Source: an uncultured Clostridia bacterium (GTDB taxonomy: Bacteria; Bacillota; Clostridia; Oscillospirales; Acutalibacteraceae). Taken from it: 44,904 nt of DNA. Both the position numbers and the translations under genes were made by a program. Within the stretch, counting starts at the first letter, position 1. The number at the start of each line of letters is the position of its first letter. The DNA lies in NCBI GenBank assembly GCA_944376265.1, contig CALWCD010000011.1, positions 1 through 44,904 of the forward strand. The letters run 5' to 3'. This document shows positions 5,768-24,827 of this stretch, one piece after another. Under the pieces are notes generated by a model. The model was not told where the DNA came from, did no database searches, and saw nothing but the letters and a program-made list of their open reading frames with translations.

Positions 5768-5774
5768 CCGGCAC

Positions 5775-7236: not shown

Positions 7237-7291
7237 AAAGGAAAAATTTCCAAAAAAAGCGGTGTCGAGAAGCCGCGGGAAGGAGCAAGAA

Positions 7292-8752
7292 ATGGCGTAT
7301 TTGCAGTCACGGAAAAACAAAGAGGGAGAAGTGGTTTCTTACAGCATTCGGGTGTACAAAGGGCGGGACCCCCGCACAGGCAAGCAGCTGACCCCCTACA
7401 CCATGACCTGGCACGTGCCGGAGGGCTGGAGCGAAAAGCGGGCCCGGAAAGAAGCGGAAAAGCAAGCGGCCGTGTTCGAGCGCCAGTGCCGGGAAGGATA
7501 CCTCACCGACAGCCGCCAGACCTTCGCCCAGTATGCGGAGTACGTGCTGGAGCTGAAGGAGCGCACGGGGCTGAAGCACCTCACCCTGATCCACTACCGG
7601 CAGAGCCTGAAGCGGGTGCTCCCCTTTCTGGGCCACCTGCGGCTGGGGGAGATCCGCCCCCAGCACCTGAACTACGTGTACCAGCAGCTCTCCCTCCCCG
7701 AGGCCCGGGAGGACAACGAGAAGGCCTTGGCCCGCCAGGCCCTGTGGCAGGTGGTGGAAGCCCGGGGGTTGGGCAGCTGTGTCGCCGGAAAGGACGGCCG
7801 GCGCATCAGCCTGGAGCGGCTGCGAAAAGGGGAACCGGTAAAGCCCGCCACCGCCCGCCGGGTGGCGGAAGCGCTGGACCTGCCCTATTCCCTGCTGTTT
7901 TCCACCCAGCGGGAGGAGAAATGCCTCAGCGGCCGGACCATTATGAACTGCCACCTGGTGATCTCCATCATTCTGGGCCAGGCGGAAAAGGAAATGCGCA
8001 TCCCTTTGAACCCGGCCCACCGGGCCAGCCCGCCCAAGCGGGAAACCTCGGACCCCAACTATTTCCAGATGGAGGAGGTGGCGAAGATCCTGAAAGCGGC
8101 GGAGGCGGAACCTATCAAGTGGAAAACGGCAGTGCACCTGCTGTTGGTGTCCGGCTGCCGGCGGGGAGAACTGCTGGGACTGAAGTGGGACCACGTGGAC
8201 TGGGAAAACGGCCAGATCCACATTGACTGCACCCTGCTTTACGCCGGGGACCGGGGCGTGTACGAGGGCACCCCCAAAACCCGGGATTCGGTGCGCACCA
8301 TCAAGCTGCCGGAGGAGACCATGTGCCTGCTGCGGGAGTATCAGCTGTGGCAGGAGGCTCAGCGCCGGGAGCAGGGAGACCGGTGGGAGGAATCCCCCTA
8401 TGTGTTTCCCGGGGAGCGGGGCGGCCGTATGAATCCCAGTCAGCTGGGAAACTGGCTGGTGCGGTTCCAGCGGCGCCACCAGCTCCCCCACCTGAACCCC
8501 CACGCCTTCCGCCACACCATGACCAGCATGCTGTTCTTCCACGGGGTGGACAGCGTGAGCATCAGCCACCGGCTGGGCCACTCCAGCGTGTCCACCACCA
8601 CCAGCATTTACAGTCATGTGATGCAGCAGGCGGAGAGCCGCATCAGCGACTGTATGGCGGATGTTCTCCTCACCACCAGAGAGGGGGGGAAAGAGCCTTT
8701 TCCCCCCTCTTCAGAGGGCGACAACAGCGGGGAAAAAACAGGGGAAAGTTGA
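7292..8752 (+). CDS. Tyrosine recombinase/integrase with HTH-like insertion
   Basis: A 486-residue site-specific recombinase. An N-terminal arm-binding region (about 1-60) is followed by a SAM-like core-binding domain (about 70-235) and the catalytic domain (about 255-450). Catalytic residues visible are Arg290 (SGCRRGELLGL), the lysine in GTPKTRDSVRTIK, His404 and Arg407 (HAFRHT), His430 (LGHSS) and nucleophile Tyr440 (SIYSH). The core-binding domain is split by a segment at about 165-210 (ISLERLRKGEPVKPATARRV, then AEAL) that reads like an XRE-type helix-turn-helix; related Clostridia integrases carry the same kind of insert. The start at 7292 has AAGGAG 6 nt upstream. No phage or conjugation genes lie nearby. 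A symmetric candidate crossover site follows 76 nt after the stop, with related copies flanking the SLH genes, so an invertase role is plausible. Confidence 0.88.
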   Translation: MAYLQSRKNKEGEVVSYSIRVYKGRDPRTGKQLTPYTMTWHVPEGWSEKRARKEAEKQAAVFERQCREGYLTDSRQTFAQYAEYVLELKERTGLKHLTLIHYRQSLKRVLPFLGHLRLGEIRPQHLNYVYQQLSLPEAREDNEKALARQALWQVVEARGLGSCVAGKDGRRISLERLRKGEPVKPATARRVAEALDLPYSLLFSTQREEKCLSGRTIMNCHLVISIILGQAEKEMRIPLNPAHRASPPKRETSDPNYFQMEEVAKILKAAEAEPIKWKTAVHLLLVSGCRRGELLGLKWDHVDWENGQIHIDCTLLYAGDRGVYEGTPKTRDSVRTIKLPEETMCLLREYQLWQEAQRREQGDRWEESPYVFPGERGGRMNPSQLGNWLVRFQRRHQLPHLNPHAFRHTMTSMLFFHGVDSVSISHRLGHSSVSTTTSIYSHVMQQAESRISDCMADVLLTTREGGKEPFPPSSEGDNSGEKTGES

Positions 8753-8827: not shown

Positions 8828-8932
8828 CCCCTGTTGAAGTTTATCTATAACTTCAACAGGGGGATGGAGGTCCCGTTTCCCCAGGATTTGACTGGGTTTT
8901 TACTCTTTTTTGATGGTGGGGAGGGTTGAACT
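8828..8932 (+). repeat. Copy 1 of the S-layer upstream repeat, with symmetric 14-7-14 core
   Basis: The core is CCCCTGTTGAAGTT (8828-8841), spacer TATCTAT (8842-8848) and AACTTCAACAGGGG (8849-8862), a perfect inverted repeat shaped like a tyrosine-recombinase crossover site. It is followed by about 70 bp that match, with only a few mismatches, sequence upstream of both SLH genes. 8833-8932 aligns without gaps in length to 19734-19833 in the same orientation, and to the reverse complement of the 11911-12010 region. Weaker similarity to the SLH leader continues left to about 8802 (the ACCCTCTT and CACAGG blocks). The copy therefore contains a diverged SLH-gene leader without the gene. Confidence 0.8.
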
Positions 8933-9103: not shown

Positions 9104-10327
9104 ATGGCATTTATCAAGCGGGACATGGCAGGGAAAATCCTGGAGCTTTCCAAGGAGTATGCCTGCCTGCTGGTTACAGGGCCCAGGCAGGTGGGCAAAA
9201 CCACGCTGCTCCGGGAGCTGATGGAGCCCCGGCGGAACTATGTGACTCTGGACGATCTGGAGGAGCGGCGTCTGGCCAAGGAAGATCCTGCATTGTTTTT
9301 GCAGCTTCACGACCTTCCCCTGTTTATCGACGAAGTGCAGTATGCCCCCCAGCTGTTTTCCTATATCAAAATCGCCATTGACAACGGAGCGCCGGCAGGG
9401 TCCTTCTGGCTTACCGGGTCCCAGGCTTTCCGCATGATGGAGCTTGCCCAGGAATCCCTGGCGGGCCGCACGGCAATTCTCCACATGCCCAGCCTCTCCC
9501 AGCACGAGATCTACGGCACCGGGGAGAATGTTCCCTTTTCCCTGGACCTGCCCTCGCTGAAAGCCAGAAGGGAGCGGGGAGCTCCCGTCACCCTGGAGGG
9601 GATCTACCAGCGGATCTGGCAGGGCTCGCTGCCCGGCCATGTGAGCGGGAAATACTCCGACCGCAGCGTCTTTTACTCCAGCTACCTTCAGACCTATATT
9701 GACCGGGATGTAAGCGAACTGGTGGCGGTCACCGACAAGCTGCTGTTTCAGGATTTCATCCGGGCGGCGGCCTGCCGGGCAGGGCAGATGCTCAACGTCC
9801 ACGACATCGCCCAGGATGTGGGGGTTTCCGACGACACTGCCAGGCGGTGGCTTCAGGTGCTGGAAAAGTCCGACATTATCTTCTATCTGCGGCCCTATTC
9901 CAACAACCTGCTGAAACGGACCGTGAAAACCCCCAAGATGTATTTCTTTGACACCGGCCTGGTGGCCTATCTCACCCGGTACAGCTCCCCGGAGATCCTC
10001 CAGAACGGGGCCATCAACGGGGCGATTCTGGAAAATTATGTGGTGGGCGAGATTTTGAAAAGCTATCAGAACGCCGCCCAGGACTGCCTTTTGTGGTATT
10101 ACCGGGACAAGAGCAGTCACGAGATCGACCTGGTGATGGAAGGCGATGGCCAGCTTCACCCTCTGGAGATCAAACGCTCGGTCAACCCTGGTTCGGAACT
10201 GGTGGGGACCTTTTCCATCCTGGACAAGGGAGCGGTCCCCCGAGGAACGGGAGCCGTCCTCTGCATGAGGCCCCAGCTTTCCGCCATAGATTCCCAAAAT
10301 TTTATCGTGCCTATCTGGACCATCTGA
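9104..10327 (+). CDS. AAA family ATPase with DUF4143 domain
   Basis: A 407-residue cytoplasmic protein. Walker A GPRQVGKTT (26-34), Walker B-like LPLFIDEVQ and the sensor-like GSFWLTGSQAF mark the AAA_14 domain. The C-terminal half is DUF4143, with the helix-turn-helix-like stretch VHDIAQDVGVSDDTARRWL and a terminal block (HEIDLVMEGDG...PLEIKRS) resembling a restriction-endonuclease-like fold. The family is widespread as solitary, often horizontally moved genes of unknown function. AAAGGAGG stands upstream of the ATG. The gene has its own promoter, operator and terminator, so it is a monocistronic unit between the recombinase and the surface-protein locus. Confidence 0.9.
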   Translation: MAFIKRDMAGKILELSKEYACLLVTGPRQVGKTTLLRELMEPRRNYVTLDDLEERRLAKEDPALFLQLHDLPLFIDEVQYAPQLFSYIKIAIDNGAPAGSFWLTGSQAFRMMELAQESLAGRTAILHMPSLSQHEIYGTGENVPFSLDLPSLKARRERGAPVTLEGIYQRIWQGSLPGHVSGKYSDRSVFYSSYLQTYIDRDVSELVAVTDKLLFQDFIRAAACRAGQMLNVHDIAQDVGVSDDTARRWLQVLEKSDIIFYLRPYSNNLLKRTVKTPKMYFFDTGLVAYLTRYSSPEILQNGAINGAILENYVVGEILKSYQNAAQDCLLWYYRDKSSHEIDLVMEGDGQLHPLEIKRSVNPGSELVGTFSILDKGAVPRGTGAVLCMRPQLSAIDSQNFIVPIWTI

Positions 10328-10485: not shown

Positions 10486-11784
10486 TCATTTCCCGGAGGG
10501 CTTCCCGGCCTTGGCAGCCATCACAGCCTGGGCGTCCTCGTCCTTCATGTCTCCCAGCTTTTCCGCCATGACGTACCGGTCCACCAAGGGGGTGGCAGGT
10601 TCCGTTTCGGGGGTTCCCCGCCTGGTGCGGAAGGCAAGCTTCAGGGCAATGGGGGTGAACACCGCGCAGCACACCACCATAATGATCACCGGCCCAAAGT
10701 ACTCATCGGGCATAAGCCCCATGGACGCGCCCCGGTTGGCCACGATCAGGGCCACCTCTCCCCGGCAGGCCATGCCCAGGCCCACCTGGAGGCTCTCCTG
10801 CCAGTTGAAGCCGTAGGCCTTGGCACCCAGGCCGCAGCCCACCAGCTTGGAGAGAATGGCCACCAGCACCAGCAGCACCGCGAAGACCACAATCTGCCAG
10901 TTCATGGAGGGAATGGCCACCTTCAGCCCGATGTTGGCAAAGAACACCGGGGTCAGCAGCAGGTAGGAAAGGGGCTGGAACTTGGACTCGATGTAAGCAC
11001 CACGGGGGGTGTTAGCCACAATGACGCCGGCGGCAAAAGCGCCGATAATGTCCGCCACCCCAAAGACCTCCTCCGCCAGGAAGGCCATGCCAAGGCACAG
11101 CACAAAGGCCAGCAGGGGGAACCGGTGAAGGTTTTTCTGAAAGCGGTTCTCATACCAGGTGAACAGCTTCACGCCCAGGAAGGCCACCACCGCCACAAAC
11201 AGGAAGAACAGCAGGATCTTCAGCAGCACCAGAGCCACGTTCACCGAATCCCCTGCCAGGCTGGTGACGATGGTCAGCACCACCAGGCCCAGCACGTCGT
11301 CAATAAGGGCGGCAGCCAGAATGGTGTTGCCCACTTTGGTGTTCAGCTTGCCGATCTCTTTGAGGGTCTCCACTGTGATGGACACGGAGGTGGCAGTGAG
11401 GATGGTGCCGATAAACACATGCTGGAGGATCTTGCTGGGATCGCTCTCTCCCGGGGAGAACAGGAACCCCAGCAAGGTACCCATGCCCAAAGGCACCAGC
11501 ACGCCGATAAGGGCCACCAGAAAGCCGGAGGTGCCGGCGTGTTTCAGCTCTTTGATGTCAGTGGACATGCCTGCCCCGAACATGATGACGATCACGCCGA
11601 TTTCCGACAGGCTGCTTAAAAAGTCCGTGGGCTGGATGATGTTCAGCACTGCCGGCCCAAAGATCAACCCCGCCAGCAGGGCGCCCACCACCTGGGGCAG
11701 CTGAAGCTGACGGGTGATCAGTCCCAGCACCTTGGTGCTCAGCAGGATCAGTGCCACGTCCAGTAAAAACTTGTAGGTTTCCAT
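10486..11784 (-). CDS. Cation:proton antiporter, CPA2 family
   Basis: A 432-residue membrane protein with about 12 transmembrane helices. It is predicted to exchange Na+ or K+ for H+ across the cytoplasmic membrane. The paired aspartates Asp162-Asp163 in ALIDDVLGL are the ion-binding residues of CPA2 exchangers (NapA/KefB-like). The conserved LPQVVGALLAGLIFGP near the N-terminus and GMACRGEVALIVA near the C-terminus also fit. A hydrophilic tail of about 50 residues follows, with no TrkA-N domain. It has its own minus-strand promoter and terminator and is divergent from SLH gene A. Nothing here links it functionally to the surface proteins. Confidence 0.9.
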   Translation of the reverse strand: METYKFLLDVALILLSTKVLGLITRQLQLPQVVGALLAGLIFGPAVLNIIQPTDFLSSLSEIGVIVIMFGAGMSTDIKELKHAGTSGFLVALIGVLVPLGMGTLLGFLFSPGESDPSKILQHVFIGTILTATSVSITVETLKEIGKLNTKVGNTILAAALIDDVLGLVVLTIVTSLAGDSVNVALVLLKILLFFLFVAVVAFLGVKLFTWYENRFQKNLHRFPLLAFVLCLGMAFLAEEVFGVADIIGAFAAGVIVANTPRGAYIESKFQPLSYLLLTPVFFANIGLKVAIPSMNWQIVVFAVLLVLVAILSKLVGCGLGAKAYGFNWQESLQVGLGMACRGEVALIVANRGASMGLMPDEYFGPVIIMVVCCAVFTPIALKLAFRTRRGTPETEPATPLVDRYVMAEKLGDMKDEDAQAVMAAKAGKPSGK

Positions 11785-11896: not shown

Positions 11897-12143
11897 TTTT
11901 TCCAGAAAGCAGTTCAACCCTCCCCACCGGCAAAAAAGAGTAAAAACCCAGTCAAATCCTGGGGAAACGGGGCCTCCATCCCCCGGTGGGAGTTTATAGA
12001 TAACTTCAACTCACGGGGAAAGAGCCCTGTGAGAATCTAAAATTTAAGAGGGTTGAAATTATGAAGAAAAGCAAGTTTCTGAAGAAATCACTTGCGATGC
12101 TTCTGGCCTTGATGCTGGTCGTCGCAATGATTCCGCTCAGCGC
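11897..12143 (+). repeat. 247-bp perfect inverted repeat, left arm (SLH gene A upstream and signal peptide)
   Basis: I compared this segment base by base with the reverse complement of 19601-19847 and found no mismatch. It spans 164 bp upstream of the ATG and the first 83 bp of coding sequence. The counterpart of the crossover core is at about 11985-12013, with spacer TATAGAT at 11995-12001 and right arm AACTTCAAC at 12002-12010. No convincing -35/-10 pair reading toward the gene was found in it; TATAGA at 11995-12000 is the best -10 candidate but has no -35. Confidence 0.95.
12010..12033 (+). promoter_or_regulatory. 5'-UTR stem-loop shared by both SLH genes
   Basis: CTCACGGGG (12010-12018) pairs with CCCTGTGAG (12025-12033), 9 bp with one G-T pair, 27 nt before the ATG. 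The same structure precedes gene B on the minus strand (19711-19734). Long structured leaders that stabilise mRNA are known for S-layer genes; that function here is inferred. GAGGG 8 nt before the ATG is the likely ribosome site. Confidence 0.55.
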
Positions 12144-15100
12144 GTCTGCCTCTGCGCTGCCGAACTTGACAAAGCTTTACATTGATGGCAAAGCTACCGA
12201 TGTAAATGGCACCACTTTTGCGGGTGAAGTCAAGTTCGACAGTTCTCAGGTGGAGCTCAAAGTGGCAGCCGGAAGCCTTGGAACGGCGGATGGTCCTGCT
12301 ACTCTGTCTGTGATCAAGGAAAATGTCTCTGACAGCTTTCCCATTAACGAAAGCGGTAATCCTCTTATGGATCTGAAGAAATGGGGAACTGAGACCGATG
12401 ATTCCTGGACTCTGACTCTGCAGCTTCTGGGCAACGATAAAGACCAGGCTGATGCCCAGATCTTTACTGTTGTTTTGGCTAAGGTTGAGTATGGTACCAC
12501 TGCCAGCTTGGATCCTGATGTAAAAGAGGCCGGTACTGGCGTCTACACCGTTGCAATCAACAATGCCGACCATGTTGTGGACATTGAAGTTCCCAAGGGC
12601 GTATTTAACGGTAGGAGAGAAGCCACCTTTACTGTGGCCCCTCAGGACAATGCTAGTATCGAAAGCGGTACTGCGTCTGCCACGAACAACGGTGACGGCA
12701 CCTATAACATTTCCGTGACTAAGGATGACCAGACCTTTACCATCACTTCTGAGTCTAAGAAGAATGTTGCCACCTACACCGTGAATGTCACTGAGAAGAA
12801 CGGCCTGAATTCCTTTGCCATGGGCAAATATGAGGGCAAGATTGATCAGGACAATGAGACCGTCACAGTGGAAGTGGACAAGGCTGATCTGTACAATGAG
12901 TTTGGCAAGATGCTTTCCTCTCTGTCTCTGAAGTTGGAGTATGAAACCTATCATCTGCAGTCCACTGTCAAAATTGGTACCGCAAACTATTTCACTGGCG
13001 ATACCTTTACCATGACCGTTCCTACAAATGTTTTGACTTCTAACCAGATTTACACTGGTAAAATCGCTCTTACTTGCGCCGGTGTGGCAAACGTGCAGAG
13101 ATACACTCTGAACGTGAAGGTGAAGACCAGCTCCAACACTGCTATCACCTACGCTCAGTTTGACGATGAGATTTCTGATGTGGCTGAGGATAACATTTCT
13201 GCTGTGCTGCCTGTCGTAAAGGCCGACGGTAAACAAACAAGACTGACAGCGGTGAAGGTTACTCTTCGCACTAGCACCTATGAAGAGATCAAGAGCATTT
13301 CTTACACCAAGGCAAACAATGTTGGTGCAAACTTTAAGAAAGATGGCACTAACGGGTCTGACGACGTATGGACCGCCTCTCTGGACCTCTCCACTGACAA
13401 GCTGATCACTGTGGCTGCTGAAGATGGCACCACCCAGATCTACACTTTGTCTGCTTCTCTGGCCGAGGATAAGGAGACCGCCTATCTTGACGCGATCTAT
13501 CTCAGCGGCGACGGTTATAAGTCTGAGGGCAACATCAACGGTAATACCATTACCTTTAAGGTGCCCTACATGACTTTGAATGTTGCCGAGTGGAAAGTGT
13601 ACGCCACCCCCAATTCCAGTGCTCGTGTGACTGCCTCCAATAATGGCGGTACCACTTCCACTGCTGTTGTGAACGGCACCAGCACTGCTGCTGTTATGGG
13701 CCTGGGCAATCTGGCGGTCACCACTACCAAGGTGAAGAAGGCTATTTCTGCCGTCAATAAGAACGATTCCTCCGTGTTCCAGACTTACGATGTGGTTGTT
13801 GAGCTGATCACTCCCGCTCAGATGGGCAAGACTCTCACCGATCTGGAAATTTCCATCCAGAACGTGAACCCTGCTAGCGGTCAGACCAACGCCGAAGTAA
13901 TGTCCCGCGTCAATCCCTACAATACCATCAAGGCCTCTGAAACCATTTCCATTACCGACAAGGGCAAGGCTACCAACAATACTGGCACCATCACTCTGAA
14001 GCCCGCAAAGAGCCTGAGTGGCGCTACCGACATTTGGGACGACGATCTCTATGCGATTATCACTGAGATTGAAACCGCCAACGGTGGTGTGGCGTTCTTC
14101 GCACAGAAGAGCAACTATGGCTACATGGTAAATGCTATTAAACTGAATAGTTTGGTCGAGAATTCTTCTACCTTCGATGATGACTTTGGTCTTGAGGGCT
14201 TTGACTTGGCAGACCTTAATACCGTTGCAAAAAATTATCGAATTGTGGTTCTGCCCGAGGACAAGGCTCGCGATGTCTTGGTCAGAAACACAGGCGCCAT
14301 TCTTCCTGATGAGTTTGCAACCGGTACGGAATATTCCTTCAAGGTTTCTGCTCAGACCGCTAATCCCGATGCTACCATCAGCAATATTTCTGTCAAGGAC
14401 AATGCTCTGAAGGTTGAGAACAGCACTACCATTACCGGTGAACTGGCTTATGGTGTGACTGCCGGCGGTCCCGGGGAGACTGCTAAGGGTACCTTTATGG
14501 ACTTTGAGCTCTCTCCCCATGCCCGTGTTCAGGGCTCTTGGAGATCTGGAACTGCTGGAACTGGTTATATCCGCGCTGGTGGTGACACCGACGGCGACGG
14601 TGAAGCTAATGTTGTTGGTGAAGACAACTGGAGCCTGCTGTTTGTCCGTGACAATGATCATAAAGTGAATGTGTTTGTTAATTCACTGGACATCAATCCT
14701 TCCTATGTTCCTCTGACCGGCAACAAGTTGACTGTAATTGCCGAGAATGGCAGCAAGAAGACCTATACCTTCGATCTGACCTGGGCCGATCCCAACACCG
14801 AGGCTGAGTTTACTTCCTTCAGCATTGGCAATTCTACCGGCCGTATCTCCGGTGATAAGATTGATGTGGTTGTTCCTTATGGCACCGATCTCACCGGTCT
14901 GATTCCCACCTTTACTACCTCCACTGGTGCTACTGTCACCTTGAGCGATACCAGTGTGATCAGCGGCAAGACCTTTGTGAACTTCAGCCGTCCCGTGCAG
15001 CTTCTCGTTACCTCTGAAGACGGCAAGAAGACCAATCCTTACACGGTAACCGTGAAGACTTCTGAGGCTTTCACTGATGTGCAGCCCGGTGCTTGGTACT

Positions 15101-15594
15101 ATGATAATGTGATGCAGGCTGCTGCTGCCGGTATCGTCAGCGGCCGTGGTGATGGCACCTTCGCTCCTCTGGCCAACGTGACCCGCCGCGACTTCGCCAT
15201 CATGCTGACCCAGATGATGGGTATCAGCAATGACGGCACTGCTGTGAGCCCCTTCATTGACGTGGAGGATGACGACTACGGTGTTGTTGCAATTGATTAT
15301 TGTTCTGCTCACGGAATTGTTTCTGGTTATACCGACGGTACCTTCCAGCCTAACAAGACCATTACCCGTCAGGAAGCCGCCAGCATGATCGTGAAGGCCA
15401 TGGGCGTTTCCAAGGCTTCTGAGGAACTGTATCCCGATGACTCCACCATTGCTGGCTGGGCTAAGGATGCTGTTTATAAGGCCAAAGCTGCCGGCCTGAT
15501 GAAGGGCGACGCCGGAACCGGTAACTTCCGTCCTACCGCTACGATTACAAGAGCTGAAGCTGCGTCCATCATGGTGAACGCACTGAATCAATAA
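12061..15594 (+). CDS. SLH-domain surface (S-layer-like) protein A
   Basis: A 1177-residue secreted protein. The signal peptide MKKSKFLKKSLAMLLALMLV continues to an ASASA cleavage region near residue 30. Residues of about 35-1000 are Thr/Ser/Asp-rich beta-sandwich modules. The last of these (SFSIGNSTGRISGDKIDVVV...) resembles the cadherin-like/DUF5018 type. Three SLH domains follow at about 1003-1055, 1063-1115 and 1122-1177 (FTDVQPGAWYYDNV, IDYCSAHGIVSGYTDGTFQP, TITRAEAASIMV); SLH domains bind pyruvylated secondary cell-wall polymer. Codons such as GCT and GTT are much commoner than in flanking genes, as expected for a very highly expressed gene. The ATG lies inside the perfect 247-bp inverted repeat shared with gene B. 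A terminator follows at 15637. Confidence 0.92.
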   Translation: MKKSKFLKKSLAMLLALMLVVAMIPLSASASALPNLTKLYIDGKATDVNGTTFAGEVKFDSSQVELKVAAGSLGTADGPATLSVIKENVSDSFPINESGNPLMDLKKWGTETDDSWTLTLQLLGNDKDQADAQIFTVVLAKVEYGTTASLDPDVKEAGTGVYTVAINNADHVVDIEVPKGVFNGRREATFTVAPQDNASIESGTASATNNGDGTYNISVTKDDQTFTITSESKKNVATYTVNVTEKNGLNSFAMGKYEGKIDQDNETVTVEVDKADLYNEFGKMLSSLSLKLEYETYHLQSTVKIGTANYFTGDTFTMTVPTNVLTSNQIYTGKIALTCAGVANVQRYTLNVKVKTSSNTAITYAQFDDEISDVAEDNISAVLPVVKADGKQTRLTAVKVTLRTSTYEEIKSISYTKANNVGANFKKDGTNGSDDVWTASLDLSTDKLITVAAEDGTTQIYTLSASLAEDKETAYLDAIYLSGDGYKSEGNINGNTITFKVPYMTLNVAEWKVYATPNSSARVTASNNGGTTSTAVVNGTSTAAVMGLGNLAVTTTKVKKAISAVNKNDSSVFQTYDVVVELITPAQMGKTLTDLEISIQNVNPASGQTNAEVMSRVNPYNTIKASETISITDKGKATNNTGTITLKPAKSLSGATDIWDDDLYAIITEIETANGGVAFFAQKSNYGYMVNAIKLNSLVENSSTFDDDFGLEGFDLADLNTVAKNYRIVVLPEDKARDVLVRNTGAILPDEFATGTEYSFKVSAQTANPDATISNISVKDNALKVENSTTITGELAYGVTAGGPGETAKGTFMDFELSPHARVQGSWRSGTAGTGYIRAGGDTDGDGEANVVGEDNWSLLFVRDNDHKVNVFVNSLDINPSYVPLTGNKLTVIAENGSKKTYTFDLTWADPNTEAEFTSFSIGNSTGRISGDKIDVVVPYGTDLTGLIPTFTTSTGATVTLSDTSVISGKTFVNFSRPVQLLVTSEDGKKTNPYTVTVKTSEAFTDVQPGAWYYDNVMQAAAAGIVSGRGDGTFAPLANVTRRDFAIMLTQMMGISNDGTAVSPFIDVEDDDYGVVAIDYCSAHGIVSGYTDGTFQPNKTITRQEAASMIVKAMGVSKASEELYPDDSTIAGWAKDAVYKAKAAGLMKGDAGTGNFRPTATITRAEAASIMVNALNQ

Positions 15595-15632
15595 GGTTTC
15601 AACTCTACTTAATTTTATGATTACCCCATAGG
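15590..15632 (+). repeat. 43-bp perfect inverted repeat, left arm (3' end of SLH gene A)
   Basis: This segment, starting at the stop codon of gene A, is the exact reverse complement of 15908-15950 at the stop codon of gene B. It contains GGTTTCAACTC, which resembles the GTTGAA motifs of the upstream repeat. Confidence 0.95.
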
Positions 15633-15636
15633 CAGG

Positions 15637-15662
15637 AGGGACAGCGCGAGCTGTCCCTTTTG
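15637..15662 (+). terminator. Terminator of SLH gene A
   Basis: The stem AGGGACAGC/GCTGTCCCT (15637-15645 with 15650-15658), loop GCGA, is followed by TTTTGT. Confidence 0.8.
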
Positions 15663-15722
15663 TCTGTTTCATCAGAGTTTGACTCACCCCATTTTCAGCT
15701 GATTATCTTTTAACAACAAGAA

Positions 15723-15777
15723 AAGGCCCCTCGCCAATCCGCTTTGACGGTATGCAGCAAGGGGCCTTATTTTTTTG
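15723..15777 (+). terminator. Second hairpin between the SLH genes
   Basis: AAGGCCCCT (15723-15731) pairs with AGGGGCCTT (15760-15768) across a 28-nt loop and is followed by ATTTTTTT. It is probably a back-up terminator. The remainder of 15663-15864 shows no gene. Confidence 0.6.
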
Positions 15778-15864
15778 CGATGGACAGGGGTTTTCTAAAA
15801 AGACGTAGGGCTCTGCCCCATGTCTCCAGTCCCTAATAAAGGTTTTCTCGAACCTAATGTTTAT

Positions 15865-15903
15865 CCCAAAATAAAGAACAAGGGCGCCGCCGAAGCAGCG
15901 CCC
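15865..15903 (-). terminator. Terminator of SLH gene B
   Basis: On the minus strand GGGCGCTGC-TTCG-GCGGCGCCC (15903 to 15882, UUCG tetraloop) is followed by a T-rich run (TTGTTCTTTATTTT). Confidence 0.8.
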
Positions 15904-15907
15904 TCAT

Positions 15908-15950
15908 CCTATGGGGTAATCATAAAATTAAGTAGAGTTGAAACCTTATT
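15908..15950 (-). repeat. 43-bp perfect inverted repeat, right arm (3' end of SLH gene B)
   Basis: Exact reverse complement of 15590-15632. It includes the last codon bases and stop of gene B and the 35 nt that follow. Confidence 0.95.
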
Positions 15951-18900
15951 TAATCAGGCCTTCGCGATTCGCATGCATGAGAATGGAAGCGGCCTCAGCT
16001 CTAATAATCGTATCAGTGGGACGGAACATACCCGTGCCAGCGTCGCCCTTCATCAGGCCGGCAGCCTTGGCAGCGTACACATGATCCGCAGCCCAGCCGG
16101 CGATCTTACCGTTATCGGAATACAGATCAGAGGAGGTACCGTACCGCTCAGCCAGTTCGAAAGCGTTGTTCAGGATGGCAGCAGCCTCCTGACGGGTGAT
16201 GGCCTTGTTGGGCTGGAAGGTGCCATCTTCGTAACCGGAGATGATGCCGTTCTGAGCGCAGAAATTGATAGCAGCCTTGCCCCAGAAATCATCAGCCACG
16301 TCCGGGAACATAGAATTCACATCGGGATCGGATTCATAGCCCATAGCGTTGGCAATCATGGCAGCAAACTCAGCACGAGTGGTAGCCTTCTTGGGAGCGA
16401 AGGTGCCGTCGCCCATACCGGAAACATATCCGTTGTTAGCAGCATCCATCACGTTCTCATAGTACCAGTCATTTTCGGAAATATCGCTGAAGTGCATGCC
16501 CTGCTCCACCGTCACAGTGTACTCCACCGTATTGTTTCCGGACTCAGAGGTCACATACAGCTTCACAGGATTGGTATAGTTGACAGAAGTCACACCGCTG
16601 ACCAGATCCACACCGCCCACACGGTCATTCACCTTAATGGTGGAGCCAAGGGACTTGTCGAAGGTAGCGATCAGACCGGTCACGTCGGTACCGTAGGGCA
16701 CATTTACGGTGATGTTGTGTCCATTCACAGTACCAGTGTACTTGCCCAGCTTAAAGTTGCTGATAACAGTCTCGTTGGAAGGCTGAGCATACTTCAGCTC
16801 GAAGGTGTAAGTGGTGGAAGAATATTCTGTATCAGTCAGACGGTTTTCACCCTTGACAATGATAGCGCTGTCTACCAACGCAGAGGCTCTGGAATCGGTA
16901 GCTGCATACACAATTACCTTGTCGCTGCTGGTATCACGGACAAACAGGAATTTACGGTTAGCAAAGGTACTAACAGCTACAGGATGGCCAATGGGATCTT
17001 CCTTTCCGTCGCCATTCCAGTCGCCCTTGGAGAAGTAGGCGCGGTCATCTTTATCGCTGAGGAGAGCATAATCACTCATGGTGAACTCAGCAAACTTGGC
17101 ATCAGAGTAGCTGGTGTTCTCCTTAACCGTGTAGCTCCAGGGCAGAGTTCCGGTGATAGTCTTGTCAGCGTTGATGGTCAGGGACACATCGCCGATCTTG
17201 ATGGTCTTCAGTTCAGCCTCGGTTTCAGCGGTCTTCTTGTTCAGAACCACATCATACAGCAGGCCCTTGCCAGTCAGCTGGCTGGTCTGCATTACAAAAG
17301 CCTGATTACCAGAATCCAACTGGCCCAGTTCCAACTGACGAGCGTACTGCTCAGGCAGGACCACGATCTCAGCATAACCATTGCCAGCAGCGGTCCCAAC
17401 AGTATAAGGAGATTTAAATGTATTACTGTAGTTTACCAGCTTCTTGCCGGTCAGCTTGCTGGAATCATCGTTGGTAGTAGCGGTAAGCCGATCCAACACA
17501 AGAGAAAGATTCGTACGCTCCTTGACAACATATACCACAGCGCCATCCTGAGCCTGGAAGCCAGTGACGACATTTTCATAAGTGATGCCCAGATCATTGC
17601 CGTTCGCGCCGTTGGTCAGGCTGGGAGCGATTTCCAGATTGATCTCGCCCACGGACATGGATCCGTTGGTAGCCTGATCCACGTTGGCATGGAAGGTGTT
17701 AGCAGTAGTCTTGGAACGGTACACGATCTTGTCACCCTGCTGGGTGTTTTTGTAAGACTGGACAGTGAAATCCACACCCTGGAGCAGCTTGCCGTTCTTT
17801 GCAGTCTCCAGAATCACCTTCACAGTGTAGGTGGTCTTAATGGTATCGTCGTTCTTGGAAACAGCCTGAATGCGGCCCTCAGAAGCAACCGCAGTCTTGG
17901 AGGTAGCAGCGGCAATGTTATCCAAATCAATGGCAGAAGCAGTGGTGGAGCCGTTCATCACGTCAATGGGGTTGGTCAGAACAACGTCCATAGAACCGTT
18001 GGGGCCAGGCTTAGTCGTGTAAGCCTCAGCGCCAACCACCTTGGAGTAGGCGGAAGGAGTGGCGAACATGGTCCAAGTGCCCACGTTGGTGGTCATGTAG
18101 GGAACGCGAACCAGAATTTCATTGTTGGAAATAGACTCGGCATCATAGGTGTTGCCAGCCTCATCCTTCAGGTAGAAGGAAGTGATGGAAGCGGAGGAAA
18201 CATCCTCGGCCACAGTGGCAACGATGCCGGTCTGGGTCATGGTGGTGCCATCCTCGGCAAACACACTGAGGATGCGCTCGGCGGACAGATCAACATCGGT
18301 GAAGTCCCAAGTCTTAGCAGACTTATCGCTGTTAAGAGCGCCCTTCTTTGGGCCGTCAGCTTCTTTACCATTCAGAACCACTTTAGTAACGGTGGGATCA
18401 GTGGTAATGGTGACAGCCAAGTTCTTGGTGTCGGTATTTTCCTTATTACCAGCGGCGCTGTAATAAGTCTTGGGCAGTTCCACAGCGATGGGATCTGTGG
18501 TGAGATCTTCCACCATGGTGTTGTTCACCTGAATAGACTTGATAGCAGTGCTGCTGCTCTTCTCCATGGAAACCTTCAGGGTGTACTCCTGCTCGGCCTT
18601 TTTGTTGTCAGCAACAGAAGCATCAGCAGACAAACGAGTGACAATCACAGACTTAGAGTAGCCAGCATCGGTGGTCAGGCCTACCAGCTTCAGCTTGTCG
18701 CCATTTTTATAAGCTTTCCTATTAATGGTGAGAGTATCCTCCAGGTTGCCATTGACAGCATAGTTGATCTTCAGTTCGGGCTCAGTGATGGTGTCGCCCC
18801 AAGGAGCTTCCACAATGGCCTTGTCAGGCAGCACCACGTTGATGGTGTCAGGAATGTCGTCCTGGTTTGTGTCAACGGGAGTGGCGGTGTATTCCACGCC

Positions 18901-19683
18901 GTCCAGACCGGTAATGGTGAAGCTCTCCAGAGCATCCAGGTACTCAGCTTCCACGGTGAACTTGCTCACGTTGGTGCCGGAAGCGGACTTCACTTCAAAG
19001 CTGTCGCCTTCGTTGGCGTTGGCCTCGCCATCGTCAGTAACACCCTGGAGGGTAGCGCCGTTAGCAGCGGTCACGAAAATCGTAGCCTGGAGATCATCCT
19101 GGTCCTCAGTGGAAGAAGAAAACTTGAAGTTACGGGCAACCAGAACCTTGATGGTCTTGGTCTCGTTGATCTCTTCCAGGCTGTTCAGAATTTCGTAAAC
19201 GCCAGTACCGGGCTTCACAGAAGCCAGATCGGTCTGAGTGTTAGCTTGGGTACGAGTGACATTCATGGTGATGGTCTTTTCCAATTTGCCCGTGGGCTTG
19301 TTGGTGGTCATATCATACAGCTTGAACGTGACCTTGCCATCCACCATGTAGGTGTCCAGATCGATCCCGGTACCCTGATCATTGTCAGTATCCCACTGAT
19401 CGACGGGAAGCTCATTCAGGCTGTCAGGCTCCACAACGCGCAGTTGATGCTCATTGCCTGTCCAACCAGACAAGTCTTCGTTGGTATCCACTTCCACAGT
19501 CTTCGCAGTGGTATATACACCCACAGAGAAGCTGTCCCCATCGATCTTAACCTTGTTTCCATCCACATAGATGGAGTCAAGGTTGATCGCAGAGGCGGAA
19601 GCGCTGAGCGGAATCATTGCGACGACCAGCATCAAGGCCAGAAGCATCGCAAGTGATTTCTTCAGAAACTTGCTTTTCTTCAT
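15946..19683 (-). CDS. SLH-domain surface (S-layer-like) protein B
   Basis: A 1245-residue secreted protein with the same architecture as protein A. The signal peptide is identical (MKKSKFLKKSLAMLLALMLV..., then ASASA), followed by about 1000 residues of beta-sandwich modules and three C-terminal SLH domains from about residue 1063 (FSDISENDWYYENVMDAANN, INFCAQNGIISGYEDGTFQP, TIIRAEAASILM). The mature regions of A and B are clearly paralogous but diverged: both contain an EDGTT block and a VPYMT-N-V-W block at matching places. Identity at DNA level is confined to the leader/signal segment and the 43-bp 3' segment, with strong similarity in the SLH part. The gene converges on A, 351 bp apart. 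Upstream on the same strand is the terminator of xylB. Confidence 0.92.
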   Translation of the reverse strand: MKKSKFLKKSLAMLLALMLVVAMIPLSASASAINLDSIYVDGNKVKIDGDSFSVGVYTTAKTVEVDTNEDLSGWTGNEHQLRVVEPDSLNELPVDQWDTDNDQGTGIDLDTYMVDGKVTFKLYDMTTNKPTGKLEKTITMNVTRTQANTQTDLASVKPGTGVYEILNSLEEINETKTIKVLVARNFKFSSSTEDQDDLQATIFVTAANGATLQGVTDDGEANANEGDSFEVKSASGTNVSKFTVEAEYLDALESFTITGLDGVEYTATPVDTNQDDIPDTINVVLPDKAIVEAPWGDTITEPELKINYAVNGNLEDTLTINRKAYKNGDKLKLVGLTTDAGYSKSVIVTRLSADASVADNKKAEQEYTLKVSMEKSSSTAIKSIQVNNTMVEDLTTDPIAVELPKTYYSAAGNKENTDTKNLAVTITTDPTVTKVVLNGKEADGPKKGALNSDKSAKTWDFTDVDLSAERILSVFAEDGTTMTQTGIVATVAEDVSSASITSFYLKDEAGNTYDAESISNNEILVRVPYMTTNVGTWTMFATPSAYSKVVGAEAYTTKPGPNGSMDVVLTNPIDVMNGSTTASAIDLDNIAAATSKTAVASEGRIQAVSKNDDTIKTTYTVKVILETAKNGKLLQGVDFTVQSYKNTQQGDKIVYRSKTTANTFHANVDQATNGSMSVGEINLEIAPSLTNGANGNDLGITYENVVTGFQAQDGAVVYVVKERTNLSLVLDRLTATTNDDSSKLTGKKLVNYSNTFKSPYTVGTAAGNGYAEIVVLPEQYARQLELGQLDSGNQAFVMQTSQLTGKGLLYDVVLNKKTAETEAELKTIKIGDVSLTINADKTITGTLPWSYTVKENTSYSDAKFAEFTMSDYALLSDKDDRAYFSKGDWNGDGKEDPIGHPVAVSTFANRKFLFVRDTSSDKVIVYAATDSRASALVDSAIIVKGENRLTDTEYSSTTYTFELKYAQPSNETVISNFKLGKYTGTVNGHNITVNVPYGTDVTGLIATFDKSLGSTIKVNDRVGGVDLVSGVTSVNYTNPVKLYVTSESGNNTVEYTVTVEQGMHFSDISENDWYYENVMDAANNGYVSGMGDGTFAPKKATTRAEFAAMIANAMGYESDPDVNSMFPDVADDFWGKAAINFCAQNGIISGYEDGTFQPNKAITRQEAAAILNNAFELAERYGTSSDLYSDNGKIAGWAADHVYAAKAAGLMKGDAGTGMFRPTDTIIRAEAASILMHANREGLIK

Positions 19684-19847
19684 AATTTCAACCCTCTTAA
19701 ATTTTAGATTCTCACAGGGCTCTTTCCCCGTGAGTTGAAGTTATCTATAAACTCCCACCGGGGGATGGAGGCCCCGTTTCCCCAGGATTTGACTGGGTTT
19801 TTACTCTTTTTTGCCGGTGGGGAGGGTTGAACTGCTTTCTGGAAAAA
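19601..19847 (-). repeat. 247-bp perfect inverted repeat, right arm (SLH gene B upstream and signal peptide)
   Basis: Exact reverse complement of 11897-12143. Identity stops inside codon 28 on the gene side. On the outer side it ends at a run of five A; 47 bp further out is the xylB terminator. Confidence 0.95.
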
Positions 19848-19893: not shown

Positions 19894-19933
19894 AAAAAAA
19901 CTCCCCGGCTGGGGGGATGCCCTAGCCGGGGAG
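19894..19933 (-). terminator. Terminator of xylB
   Basis: On the minus strand CTCCCCGGCT (19933-19924) pairs with AGCCGGGGAG (19910-19901), followed by seven T (19900-19894). Confidence 0.9.
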
Positions 19934-19993: not shown

Positions 19994-21520
19994 TTATTCG
20001 GCCTTGGCCAGGAGCTTGTAGTTCTCCTTCAAGGCGGGATACAGGCTCTTGTAGACCTGGTAGAAGCTCTCGTACTTGGGAACGTTCTCGGCGATGGGAG
20101 GCTGAGGATCGTTGGTCTTGATCATGGCGTCGCAGGCCTCCTGCACGGATGGATACAGCCCGGCGCCAACACCGGCCAGAATTGCCACGCCCAGGGCGGG
20201 GCCTTCCTTGGACTTCACGGTCTTCACAGGGCAGTTGTAGGCGTCTGCCAGCATCTGCCGCCACAGGGGGGAGCTGCCGCCGCCGCCGCAGGCCAGCATC
20301 TCGCCGATGTCGATGCCCATGCCCCGGAGAATCTCCATGCAGTCACGGAGAGAGTAGGTCACGCCTTCCATGACGGCCCGGAGCATATCCCACTTGGTGT
20401 GCATGGCGGACAGGCCGAAGAACACGCCGCGGCAGTCGGGGTCCAGGTGAGGAGTGCGCTCGCCCATCAGGTAGGGCAGGTACAGCAGACGGTTGCAGCC
20501 AATGGGAGAACGGTCCGCTTCCTTGTCCATCAGGTAGTAGGGGTCCACGCCCATGCCCAGAGCGGTTTCCTTCTCGGCGGAGCAGAAGTTGTCCCTAAAC
20601 CACTTCAGGGACAGGCCCGCGCCCTGGGTGACGCCCATCACGTGCCAGGCGCCGGGAACGGCGCAGCAGAAGGTATGTACCCGGCCCTTGGGGTCGATGG
20701 AGATCTTGTCGGTGTGGGCGAACACCACGCCGGAGGTGCCAATGGTGGTGAAGGCCTTGCCGTCACGGACCACGCCGGTGCCCACAGCGGCAGCAGCGTT
20801 GTCGCCGGCGCCGCCCACCACGGGAGTGCCGGCCTTCAGGCCGGTAAGGGCAGCGGCTTCGGGGGTGACTTCGCCGGTGACCTCGGGGGACTCGTACACC
20901 TTGGCCAGCAGGGCGGGATCGATGTCCAGCTTTTCCAGAACTTCCTGGCTCCAGCAGCGGCCGGGCACGTCCAGCAGCTGCATGCCGGAGGCGTCGGACA
21001 CCTCGGTGGCGAACTCGCCGGTGAGCTCATAGCGGACGTAGTCCTTGGGCAGCAGGATGTGGGCGCACTGGGCGTAGATCTCGGGCTGGTGGTTCCGAAC
21101 CCAGAGGATCTTGGAGGCGGTAAAGCCGGTAAGGGCGGGGTTGGCGGTGATCTCAATGAGCCGCTGGGCCCCTACCCGCTGGGTGATCTCCTCGCACTCG
21201 GCGGCGGTGCGCTGGTCCGCCCAGATGATGGAACGGCGCAGCACGTTGCCCTGTTTGTCCAGCATCACCAGGCCGTGCATCTGGCCGGAAATGCCCACGG
21301 CCTTGATGTCGCCGTTGTCCACGCCGCTCTTCTCAATCACGGTCTTAATGGTGCGGCAGGCGGCGTCCCACCAGTGGGCGGGCTCCTGCTCGGCCCAGCC
21401 GTTGTGCTCCTGGAACAGGGGGTATTCCACGGTGGCGCTGGCCATCACATGACCTTCCCGGTCGAACAGCACGGTTTTGGTACCGCTGGTGCCAAGGTCA
21501 ATGCCAATTAAATATTCCAT
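19994..21520 (-). CDS. xylB: Xylulokinase
   Basis: A 508-residue FGGY-family sugar kinase that phosphorylates D-xylulose with ATP to xylulose-5-phosphate, feeding the pentose phosphate pathway. IGIDLGTSGTK (5-15) is the N-terminal phosphate loop, ISGQMHGLV (78-86) is the XylB signature, and the catalytic aspartate is Asp240 in GGAGDNAAAAVG. The late CGGGGSSPLWRQMLAD block is the adenosine-binding region. Length is normal. No xylose isomerase or transporter lies nearby. The gene is divergent from the GlpA-like operon, and no clear promoter could be assigned to it in 21521-21600. AAAGGACG precedes the ATG. A glycerol kinase was considered but the signature is of XylB. Confidence 0.92.
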   Translation of the reverse strand: MEYLIGIDLGTSGTKTVLFDREGHVMASATVEYPLFQEHNGWAEQEPAHWWDAACRTIKTVIEKSGVDNGDIKAVGISGQMHGLVMLDKQGNVLRRSIIWADQRTAAECEEITQRVGAQRLIEITANPALTGFTASKILWVRNHQPEIYAQCAHILLPKDYVRYELTGEFATEVSDASGMQLLDVPGRCWSQEVLEKLDIDPALLAKVYESPEVTGEVTPEAAALTGLKAGTPVVGGAGDNAAAAVGTGVVRDGKAFTTIGTSGVVFAHTDKISIDPKGRVHTFCCAVPGAWHVMGVTQGAGLSLKWFRDNFCSAEKETALGMGVDPYYLMDKEADRSPIGCNRLLYLPYLMGERTPHLDPDCRGVFFGLSAMHTKWDMLRAVMEGVTYSLRDCMEILRGMGIDIGEMLACGGGGSSPLWRQMLADAYNCPVKTVKSKEGPALGVAILAGVGAGLYPSVQEACDAMIKTNDPQPPIAENVPKYESFYQVYKSLYPALKENYKLLAKAE

Positions 21521-21645
21521 TACAACTCGCGTCCTTTCTCTGCTCCCCCAGGGGGGGGGAATTTGTCGGTATCACTAATTACTATTTTCCCCGATTTTGA
21601 GGGGCATGTCAAGGGAGAAGGCGCCTTTTTTCACGATTTCTTTTC

Positions 21646-21674
21646 TTGCGGCAGGGAGGAGTTTGTGCTATTCT
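21646..21674 (+). promoter_or_regulatory. Promoter of the GlpA-like operon
   Basis: TTGCGG (21646-21651), a 17-nt spacer and TATTCT (21669-21674) lie about 75 nt upstream of the first gene. Confidence 0.5.
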
Positions 21675-21724
21675 AATACTGTGGGTTGTAATAAGGAACT
21701 CTTCGTAATTTTTCAAGGAGAGAT

Positions 21725-21745
21725 ATGGACAAACATAGGCGGTGA
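21725..21745 (+). CDS. Possible six-codon leader ORF before the GlpA-like gene
   Basis: ATG at 21725 reads MDKHRR and stops with TGA at 21743-21745, 4 nt before the ATG of the next gene. AAGGAG (21715-21720) lies only 4 nt upstream, a rather short spacing. If translated, it would couple initiation of the main gene, whose own site (GGCGGTGAG) is weak. This may be chance. Confidence 0.25.
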   Translation: MDKHRR

Positions 21746-21749
21746 GAAC

Positions 21750-23192
21750 ATGGAACAGTACGATGTAATTGTGGTGGGAGCCGGTGTTGTGGGCTCTGGC
21801 GTTGCCCGGGAGCTTGCCCGCAGGAAGGGCCGCTTCCTGGTGGTGGAGCGTGCCCCGGATGTGTGCGAGGGCACCAGCAAGGCCAACTCCGCCATTATCC
21901 ACGCCGGGTTCGACGCGGAGCCCGGCACCATGAAAGCAAAGATGAACGTAAAAGGCAACCGGATGATGGACCAGCTCTCGGAGGAGCTGGACATCCCCTT
22001 CAAGCGGGTGGGGGCTTTTGTGGTGTGTTTTGCCAAGGAGGAGCTGCCCAAGCTTCAGGAGCTCTACGACCGGGGGGTGAAAAACGGGGTCACCGGCATG
22101 CGCCTGCTCACCGGGGAGGAGGCCCGGGCCCTGGAGCCCAACCTTTCGGAAGAGGTGGAAGGCGCCCTGCTGGCGGAGACCTCCGGCATTGTGTGCCCCT
22201 TTGAGCTGACCCTGGGCATGGCGGAGAGCGCCTCCAAAAACGGGGTGGAGTTCTCCTTTGACACAGAGGTCACCGGCCTGGAGAGACAGGGGGAGGACTG
22301 GGTCCTCCACACCAGCAAGGGCGACTTGGAAGCCCGGGCAGTGGTGAACGCCGCCGGGGTGTACGCCGACTGGCTCCACAACCTGGTGTGTGAGAAGAAG
22401 CTGCACATCACTCCCCGCCGGGGGGAGTACTGCCTGCTGGACCGGACCGCCGGGGGCCATGTGTCCCGCACCGTGTTCCAGCTGCCTGGAAAGTACGGCA
22501 AGGGGGTGCTGGTCTCCCCCACGGTCCACGGGAACCTGCTTTTGGGCCCCACTGCCAAGGATATTGAGGAGAAGGAGGACACCGCCACCACGGCGGCGGG
22601 CCTGGCGGAGGTGCTGGAAAAGTCCGCCCTGGGGGTGAAGAACATCCCCGCCCGGCAGGTGATCACCTCCTTTTCCGGCCTGCGTGCCCACGAGGATGGG
22701 GACGACTTTGTCCTGGGAGAGAGCGCGCCCGGGTTCTTCGACGCGGCGGGCATTGAGTCCCCCGGACTTACCAGCGCCCCGGCTATCGGGGAGTATCTGG
22801 CGGAGCTGATTGGGGAGAAGCTGGGCCTGCCGGAAAACCCGGACTTTGACCCCATCCGCAAAGGGGTGCCCAAGCTGAAGGAGATGGAGCCGGAGCAACG
22901 GGCGGAGATGATCCGGGAGAACCCGGCCTACGGGCAGATTGTCTGCCGGTGCGAGGAGGTGTCCCAGGGAGAGATTCTGGACGCCATCCACGGCATTCTG
23001 GGAGCCAAGACCCTGGACGGGGTGAAGCGCCGCACCCGGGCCGGCATGGGAAGATGCCAGGCGGGCTTCTGCTCGCCCCGGGTGATGGACCTGCTCTCCA
23101 AGGAGCTGGGGCTGGATTTGACCCAGGTGCGCAAAAGCGGAAATCAGGCACAGATCGTGCTGGAAAAGACCCGGGGGGAGGACCAAGCATGA
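21750..23192 (+). CDS. FAD-dependent glycerol-3-phosphate dehydrogenase-like protein (GlpA type)
   Basis: A 480-residue flavoprotein of the DAO family. The FAD-binding motif GAGVVGSGVARELAR is at 10-24, followed by the substrate-domain block NSAIIHAGFD. The C-terminus carries a BFD-like [2Fe-2S] domain with cysteines in VCRCEEVSQGEI and MGRCQAGFC. This is the GlpA-like arrangement of Clostridia, expected to oxidise glycerol-3-phosphate to dihydroxyacetone phosphate with electrons passed to the partner proteins encoded downstream. The start at 21750 matches the family N-terminus. The stop overlaps the next start (ATGA). The substrate is inferred from family and operon; other 2-hydroxyacids are possible. 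Confidence 0.82.
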   Translation: MEQYDVIVVGAGVVGSGVARELARRKGRFLVVERAPDVCEGTSKANSAIIHAGFDAEPGTMKAKMNVKGNRMMDQLSEELDIPFKRVGAFVVCFAKEELPKLQELYDRGVKNGVTGMRLLTGEEARALEPNLSEEVEGALLAETSGIVCPFELTLGMAESASKNGVEFSFDTEVTGLERQGEDWVLHTSKGDLEARAVVNAAGVYADWLHNLVCEKKLHITPRRGEYCLLDRTAGGHVSRTVFQLPGKYGKGVLVSPTVHGNLLLGPTAKDIEEKEDTATTAAGLAEVLEKSALGVKNIPARQVITSFSGLRAHEDGDDFVLGESAPGFFDAAGIESPGLTSAPAIGEYLAELIGEKLGLPENPDFDPIRKGVPKLKEMEPEQRAEMIRENPAYGQIVCRCEEVSQGEILDAIHGILGAKTLDGVKRRTRAGMGRCQAGFCSPRVMDLLSKELGLDLTQVRKSGNQAQIVLEKTRGEDQA

Positions 23193-24463: not shown

Positions 24464-24464
24464 T

Positions 24465-24827
24465 ATGGCAGTGATCGAGCTTACCTGCATCAGCTGTCCC
24501 CTGGGCTGTCCCCTGAAGGTGGAGACCGACCAGGCGGGCCAGGTGGTCCGGGTGACGGGGAACACCTGCAAGCGGGGAGAACTGTACGGCAAGAAGGAAG
24601 TCACCGCCCCGGAGCGGATGGTGGCCTCCACGGTGAAAGTGGAAGGCGGCAGCGCGCCCCTGGTGAGCGTGCGCACCCAGGGACCCATCCCCAAGGGGAA
24701 GATCTGGGACTGCATGGCGGACATCCGCCGGGCAGTGGTGAAAGCCCCGGTGAAATTGGGGGACGTGGTGGTGGAGAACGCCGGGGGCACCGGCGTGGAT
24801 GTGATCGCCACGAAAACAGTGGACTAA
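24465..24827 (+). CDS. DUF1667 domain protein
   Basis: A 120-residue cytoplasmic protein. It begins MAVIELTCISCPLGCPLKVE, with three cysteines in a C-x2-C-x3-C pattern, and has a fourth in GNTCKRGELYGKKE. This is the DUF1667 signature and likely binds an iron-sulfur cluster. DUF1667 genes regularly follow the two flavoprotein genes found here, so a small electron-transfer subunit of the same dehydrogenase is inferred. The start is set by the family N-terminus; the ribosome site GAGGCG lies inside the preceding gene. Confidence 0.85.
   Translation: MAVIELTCISCPLGCPLKVETDQAGQVVRVTGNTCKRGELYGKKEVTAPERMVASTVKVEGGSAPLVSVRTQGPIPKGKIWDCMADIRRAVVKAPVKLGDVVVENAGGTGVDVIATKTVD

Follow-up and report, generated by a model that had tools for sequence, protein, structure and literature searches.

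The DNA analysed here (the window) is the whole of contig C11, 44,904 nucleotides long, from the 116-contig assembly of an uncultured Clostridia bacterium of the Acutalibacteraceae (own genome, G000). It carries two convergent genes, A and B, for proteins with SLH domains and, to their left, a gene for a tyrosine recombinase. The window is quite likely part of a surface-layer (S-layer) switching system with a single promoter, to which it would contribute two stored cassettes and the recombinase that would drive inversion at short core sites. A and B are probably two of the stored, unexpressed versions, and the recombinase encoded beside the shared site probably cuts that site. The unit that matters is the short core (11995-12012, 8842, 19749) together with the recombinase gene (7292-8752), and not the whole of the 247-bp inverted repeat that bounds the two genes. 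That the A and B proteins form S-layers is suggested by their SLH domains. The elements concerned are as follows.

7292..8752, + strand: tyrosine recombinase, 486 aa from the conserved ATG, proposed switch enzyme; frame open from GTG 7262; Pfam Phage_integrase (PF00589), 3.2e-26
8831..8859, either strand: core-like site, a perfect dyad with 11-bp arms and 7-bp spacer TATCTAT on the + strand; core match with 2 mismatches, 9/9 arm matches
8849..8932, - strand: copy of the upstream block seen before cores A, B and partly that of contig C41, joined here to the recombinase-side site
11897..12156, + strand: left repeat arm, exact over 11897-12143
11995..12012, + strand: core A, TATAGATAACTTCAACTC; 7-bp spacer 11995-12001, left half-site 11984-11994
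12010..12033, + strand: 5'-leader hairpin; in other species the leader takes a similar fold from different bases
12061..15594, + strand: gene A, encoding an SLH protein of 1177 aa; a cassette that lacks the conserved promoter
15583..15632, + strand: 3'-end repeat of A, spanning the stop codon and the DNA just 3'; 96% inverted match to 15908-15957
15908..15957, - strand: 3'-end repeat of B, spanning the stop codon and the DNA just 3'; 96% inverted match to 15583-15632
15946..19683, - strand: gene B, encoding an SLH protein of 1245 aa; again a cassette that lacks the conserved promoter
19588..19847, - strand: right repeat arm, 260-nt inverted match
19732..19749, - strand: core B, TATAGATAACTTCAACTC, the same core as A

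In the proposed mechanism, a cassette would consist of an SLH gene behind a common leader that starts at the core. One locus per genome would have a promoter ending at the spacer, and the gene behind this promoter would be on. The recombinase encoded at 7292-8752 would cross over two cores at the spacer. Where the cores are inverted, the DNA between them would be inverted; the promoter flank would gain a new leader and gene, and the old gene would be parked behind a promoterless flank. A flip of the A/B pair would turn both genes round and change which one lies inverted to the promoter. Promoter activity, enzyme action on the cores and switching in living populations are what the sequence comparisons described below would imply.

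Direct letter comparison confirmed the exact inverted repeat described in the earlier note: 11897-12143 is the reverse complement of 19601-19847 over 247 bp. With mismatches allowed, the arms extend to 11897-12156 and 19588-19847 (260 nt at 99%, far above chance). The repeat contains 98 nt 5' of the core, the core, the 5' leader and the signal-peptide codons of A and B. It thus spans upstream DNA, leader and signal-peptide codons of two convergent and otherwise diverged SLH genes, as the same note had claimed. The A and B proteins share the same N-terminus, each has three SLH matches at its C-terminal end, and the two are 32% identical over the BLASTP alignment. At the nucleotide level, counted in 200-nt blocks of A, identity begins at 0.68, falls to 0.45-0.62 and rises to 0.76 in the final block. 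A further inverted repeat lies in the C-terminal coding part (15424-15569 and 15983-16128, 77%).

The own genome was searched with the repeat, and five places were found: A, B, contig C41, the end of contig C95, and 8833-8932. The last three, and the inverted repeats at the 3' ends and in the C-terminal coding part of A and B, go beyond the earlier note. The C41 copy belongs to a third SLH gene (1263 aa), the C95 copy is a 77-nt piece at the contig end, and the partial copy at 8833-8932 is a 100-nt piece. Alignment of the copies revealed an upstream block common to A, B, 8833-8932 and, in its core-side part only, C41. Other upstream DNA is present at the C95 copy, with a -35 TTGCAT, 17 nt, and a -10 TATTAT running into the core. 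This promoter is joined at the same core to the same leader as in A and B; the gene beside it resembles what we take to be ribulose-phosphate 3-epimerase. The own genome has 50 SLH-domain matches on 16 contigs. Restriction of the leader to five places despite this spread indicates that it is not a general feature of SLH genes. The gene that should follow the C95 promoter was sought among eight other SLH stretches, and no N-terminus shown there had the leader, some frame starts not being shown.

The core and leader were then compared across 60 genomes, 29 in the genus (own included) and 31 outside it, each species being represented by one genome. The leader is present in 27 of the 60: 26/29 in the genus and 1/31 outside (G046, a weak 34-bp match). 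It begins with the core, which consists of a half-site, a 7-bp spacer (TATAGAT here) and an AACTTC half-site. The degenerate core pattern TATANNYAACTTCMACTC gave 74 exact matches in 24/29 genus genomes, and the reversed-pattern control gave 0. In the fetched loci, 71 core-like sites were listed in 23 genomes; three with too little upstream DNA were dropped and 68 were scored. At promoterless copies, an arm mirroring the AACTTC half-site stands to the left of the spacer (mean 5.38/9 matches vs 2.08 at shifted control positions); as copies within one genome are related, the p-value for these dyad arms is not to be taken at face value. The spacer 7-mer is constant among the listed copies of one genome, except at site 8842, and varies between species (TATAGAT, TATAAAT, TATAGTT, TATAGGT and others). 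A contig ends no more than 300 nt from 29/71 of the listed sites, a pattern that repeats and mixed arrangements would each produce. Exact core matches were also found in three viral contigs; the leader follows none of them, and they were taken as chance.

The leader downstream of the core folds into a hairpin in 16/16 leaders tested (-12 to -18 kcal/mol vs shuffle means of -2.3 to -7.8). The hairpins were folded one by one because the MAFFT alignment of the leaders left the 5' stem unaligned, and no covariation statistic is claimed. At the promoter-linked leader of G019 (G019:C6, ~187650-187702) the hairpin is lost and the core altered to TATAGATATCTTCAACTC. A second leader form occurs in G001, G027 and G011 (L095, L099, L101, L114, L121), in which a different, GC-rich stretch follows the core and the usual GAATCTAAA is missing from the 72 nt shown.

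The DNA on the other side of the core differs between copies. Each site was scored by its best identity to a reference set of seven promoter copies chosen by eye, with the own genome left out. A conserved promoter block ending at the core was found at 18/68 sites (best identity 0.76-1.00), and other DNA (<=0.48) at the remaining 50. The 18 promoter sites are in 17 genomes, at one locus each. The block has a -35 TTGCAT, TTGCTT or TTGCAA, 17 nt, and a -10 that is most often TATTAT, and it ends at the spacer. A promoter pattern without the core anchor was noisy, with one-base mis-spacing, and was used only as a lead to two further places: a copy in G011 (C155), added later as the 18th genome, and G014:C76, where the contig ends inside a promoter resembling that of G005. 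In Neglectibacter timonensis (G008:C11, ~67282-67510), promoter and leader stand in tandem twice, 228 bp apart, which may be a duplication or an assembly fault.

The recombinase is closely tied to these sites. Orthologs (>=60% identity) were found in 18/29 genus genomes, own included, and in all 18 the frame is unbroken from the conserved start (467-492 aa). Named records that match the recombinase put the genus near Neglectibacter, Neglecta and Acutalibacter. An apparent breakage in G005, G021 and G023 was rejected; the single stops all lie ahead of the conserved start, and from there on the frame is intact. R301, K339, H414, R417, H440 and Y450 (numbered from GTG 7262), which we take to be the catalytic residues, are invariant in the 13 of 18 orthologs aligned. 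The stop codon of the recombinase gene lies 79-350 bp before a same-strand core in 16/18 ortholog genomes (90 bp in the window). At least two leader matches were present in 16/18 genomes with an ortholog vs 2/11 without (Fisher p 2.5e-4), the latter being G025 (85% complete) and G004 (weak 32-36 nt matches). The recombinase-side core is 21-39 kb downstream of the dnaA start, facing away from it, in 10/10 genomes with both on one contig (G001, G005, G010, G011, G017, G019, G020, G021, G022 and G023, of the 18 with an ortholog; positions compared by eye).

The dyad beside the window recombinase differs from the other sites. At 8831-8859 the recombinase side meets the upstream block, with no leader or gene, as though two upstream halves had been joined. 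In G003 and G019, unlike the window, a normal leader follows the recombinase side.

An attachment site just 3' of the integrase gene is a feature of many integrative elements. The recombinase could in principle be part of an integrated mobile element, with site 8842 as its attachment site, and the position of the site just 3' of the gene agrees with this. So does the predicted fold, which resembles those of lambda-type and Tn1549 integrases; the AlphaFold model is modest (mean pLDDT, a per-residue confidence score, 70.9) and serves as a basis for fold class only. Within the model, the SAM-like and catalytic parts are separated by an additional, well-modelled segment (residues ~150-218) that resembles an XRE-type helix-turn-helix. 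A mobile origin is nevertheless very unlikely and the least probable of the alternatives considered, as the gene keeps its distance from dnaA in all ten one-contig genomes, the neighbour family F4 adjoins it in 11/18 genomes, and G019, G003 and G021 are collinear with the part of the window to the left of it.

The same system of silent cassettes and one promoter could also be operated through its long leaders by gene conversion, or by homologous recombination that depends on RecA, the recombinase being incidental. We consider this unlikely. It would be in keeping with exact arms of 247 bp that reach 98 nt 5' of the core, with the upstream blocks that promoterless copies have in common within G000, G008 and G028, and with the likeness of the 3' ends of A and B. 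Against it stand the short, recurrent distance between the recombinase gene end and the core, the co-occurrence of the recombinase and several cassettes, and the steady position of the recombinase near dnaA. Moreover, homology between promoter copies and other copies begins exactly at the spacer of the dyad site, at which the recombinase would act.

Gene order in related genomes, a comparison proposed in the earlier note, was examined, and flanks were found to be re-paired between species. The genes and signals next to the A/B pair in the window are the following.

9104..10327, + strand: AAA_14/DUF4143 ATPase gene (domain matches), between the recombinase site and the antiporter gene
10486..11784, - strand: sodium/hydrogen exchanger family (antiporter) gene, left outer flank of the A/B pair; PF00999 3.6e-72; TIGR00932 under its cut-off
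19902..19917, - strand: terminator-like hairpin between xylB and B, reading toward B; consensus match only, 2 found vs a shuffle mean of 0.8
19994..21520, - strand: xylulokinase gene (xylB), right outer flank of the A/B pair; TIGR01312 above its cut-off

G000 shares collinear DNA with G019 on the left side of the recombinase core (window positions 1287-6954 and 7206-8667) and again from xylulokinase rightward (19994-24802). Between the recombinase core and xylulokinase, G019 has one SLH gene; in G000 the A/B pair occupies this interval together with the genes for the ATPase and the exchanger. G019 has its exchanger gene elsewhere, 3' of the promoter-driven SLH gene. A glycerol-phosphate-oxidase flank has also changed partners: it is one SLH gene away from the promoter both in G009, where xylulokinase lies between, and in G025, where it does not, is reached via one SLH gene from the recombinase in G019, and via the A/B pair from the exchanger in G000. 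Cassettes of G017 and G022 are 75% alike over 1249 nt and their upstream flanks differ; this is the only pair of at least 1200 nt with both flanks covered. Such junction changes between species are those predicted by inversion at the cores; many of them are equally predicted by homologous recombination.

Absence of present switching is very unlikely. The SLH genes would then be an old family whose leaders spread by duplication, and the perfect repeat a recent duplicate; the upstream DNA shared by A and B is indeed what duplication would leave. Ordinary duplicates would not be expected to yield one promoter locus per genome, and the idea also sits poorly with a repeat found at only five own-genome places among SLH matches on 16 contigs, with a recombinase frame unbroken in every ortholog, and with flanks re-paired at these very cassette genes.

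The earlier note had likened the pair to the slpA/slpB inversion of Lactobacillus acidophilus and had supposed that a promoter outside the repeat decides which gene is on. Recombination-driven S-layer switching fits, and no promoter was found inside the repeat; a promoter copy does exist outside it, on C95. The window pair alone is not a two-state switch, however. The A and B flanks have 0.29 identity each to the promoter block, i.e. they are of the promoterless kind, and flipping 11.9-19.8 kb alone would thus exchange two promoterless genes. An invertible pair with a local outside promoter choosing A or B is therefore highly improbable, even though the convergent layout and exact inverted repeat would suit it and a convergent pair with the promoter on one outer side exists in N. 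timonensis (G008; cores 60192+ and 67282-). The terminator-like hairpin before B also speaks against a local promoter. A simple promoter scan toward A or B found nothing, which is weak evidence because the conserved C95 promoter was missed by the same scan.

Several observations weigh against the reading of a single-promoter, recombinase-driven system. No promoter copy was found in the drafts G002, G006, G018, G023 and G024, all of which have cores, and the gene behind the own (C95) promoter is absent from the assembly, A/B and this promoter being on separate contigs. Promoter copies are without the left half-site (2.72/9 matches, control 2.39). The A/B identity, in reaching 98 nt 5' of the core, extends beyond the needs of an enzyme acting on the core only. 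Two of the 18 ortholog genomes do not have the recombinase just before a core: in G005 (C3, ~304200-306229) it is reversed relative to the usual neighbour order and reads away from a core that lies 594 bp ahead of its start, and in G024 the contig ends ~80 bases after the gene. G018 (2 cores) and G025 (3 cores; 85% complete) are multi-core genomes with no ortholog at >=60%. Fast divergence of the gene bodies leaves only one cross-species cassette pair comparable. With one assembly per species, inversion is deduced from the junctions and none was observed, and homologous recombination through 170-260 bp repeats would yield many of these junctions.

The position of the cores raises a further possibility. 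The single contig of G022 is taken as circular. Measured from the start of the record, which is also the position of dnaA, its cores fall at -35.6, +21.3, +36.5 and +40.5 kb. The core with the promoter (-35.6 kb) faces away from dnaA on one side, and those at +21.3 and +40.5 kb do so on the other. Given this geometry, recombination of the promoter core with the +21.3 or +40.5 kb core would invert the origin region, 57-76 kb. S-layer identity may thus be switched by programmed inversions of an origin-containing chromosome segment, a suggestion that we make tentatively and hold to be somewhat short of even. A gene that we take to be accA-like is at +45 kb in G022, downstream of dnaA and 3' of a cassette. 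In G005 it is at about -25 kb, upstream of dnaA, in mirror orientation and on the upstream side of a core. This mirror placement, with the recombinase on the unchanged side, is what an origin flip predicts. In G019 and G007 the accA-like gene is on the dnaA contig, and no core is listed beside it. The promoter is downstream of dnaA in G028, G007 and G008, so the G022 geometry is not general. A single origin flip was considered as the cause of these downstream promoters and was dropped, as a flip leaves the promoter's side of dnaA unchanged.

Surface-protein switching of related kinds is known. In Campylobacter fetus, the sap surface-layer family has conserved 5' regions and a single promoter that is moved by RecA-dependent inversion. 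Here, unlike at sap, the evidence points to a linked tyrosine recombinase and a short dyad site. For L. acidophilus, passages of one source describe a promoterless slpB and an slp expression site (PMC6015585); the title of Boot et al. 1996, in the reference list of that paper, speaks of the inversion. Putative S-layer genes with and without a promoter, and a convergent pair with a common 5' region, are found here too; unlike slpA/slpB, there are more than two cassettes, no conserved promoter stands beside the window pair, and a recombinase and its site are linked.

The closest likeness is to the mycoplasma systems. At vpma, vsp and vsa, according to parts of PMC2268961, switching occurs by inversions that connect silent genes with a unique promoter, and recombinase genes lie close by. 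Mycoplasma agalactiae vpma and M. bovis vsp (Xer1 and Mbr tyrosine recombinases) have a unique promoter, surface-protein genes of which several are silent, a tyrosine recombinase gene in the vicinity, and recombination sites that have been proposed to lie in the 5' untranslated region (same source). The counterpart of the vpma site would be the common core at the start of the leader, where recombination would occur. As at vpma, one promoter copy and several promoterless copies per genome are found, as is a linked tyrosine recombinase gene in 16/18 orthologs. The proteins here are, unlike those of vpma and vsp, SLH proteins of a Clostridia genus, with cassettes over tens of kb and several contigs. 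vpma is also a single contiguous locus, whereas in G022 the promoter core and other cores are on opposite sides of dnaA.

Among clostridia, the cell-surface gene cwpV of Clostridioides difficile is under inversion control, as stated in portions of PMC2784873 and PMC5903667, and other clostridial and gut inversions are covered in portions of PMC5903667 and PMC11892184. In the C. difficile switches, short invertible regions govern the genes next to them, unlike the present case, in which alternative whole genes would share one promoter. Term counts in the main text of PMC5903667 and PMC11892184 gave no occurrence of S-layer or SLH. Literature searches, some of them with the genus name, returned no report of such a system in this genus, most subscription journals being outside their coverage.

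If the proposed system is real, a gut Clostridia genus would change its surface coat by a dedicated recombinase acting on chromosome-wide sites, and single-promoter antigen switching would extend outside the mycoplasmas. Antigenic variation would itself rearrange the chromosome, around the origin in one genome, and this would help to explain the frequent breaks of draft assemblies at core sites. A defined enzyme and an 18-bp core are now named as a testable pair.

Elsewhere, no Rfam family reached its gathering score in a scan of the window, and the repeat had no match in phage records. A separate repeat of ~168 bp is present in two tandem copies at 24838-25166, with a weaker copy at 32408-32480.

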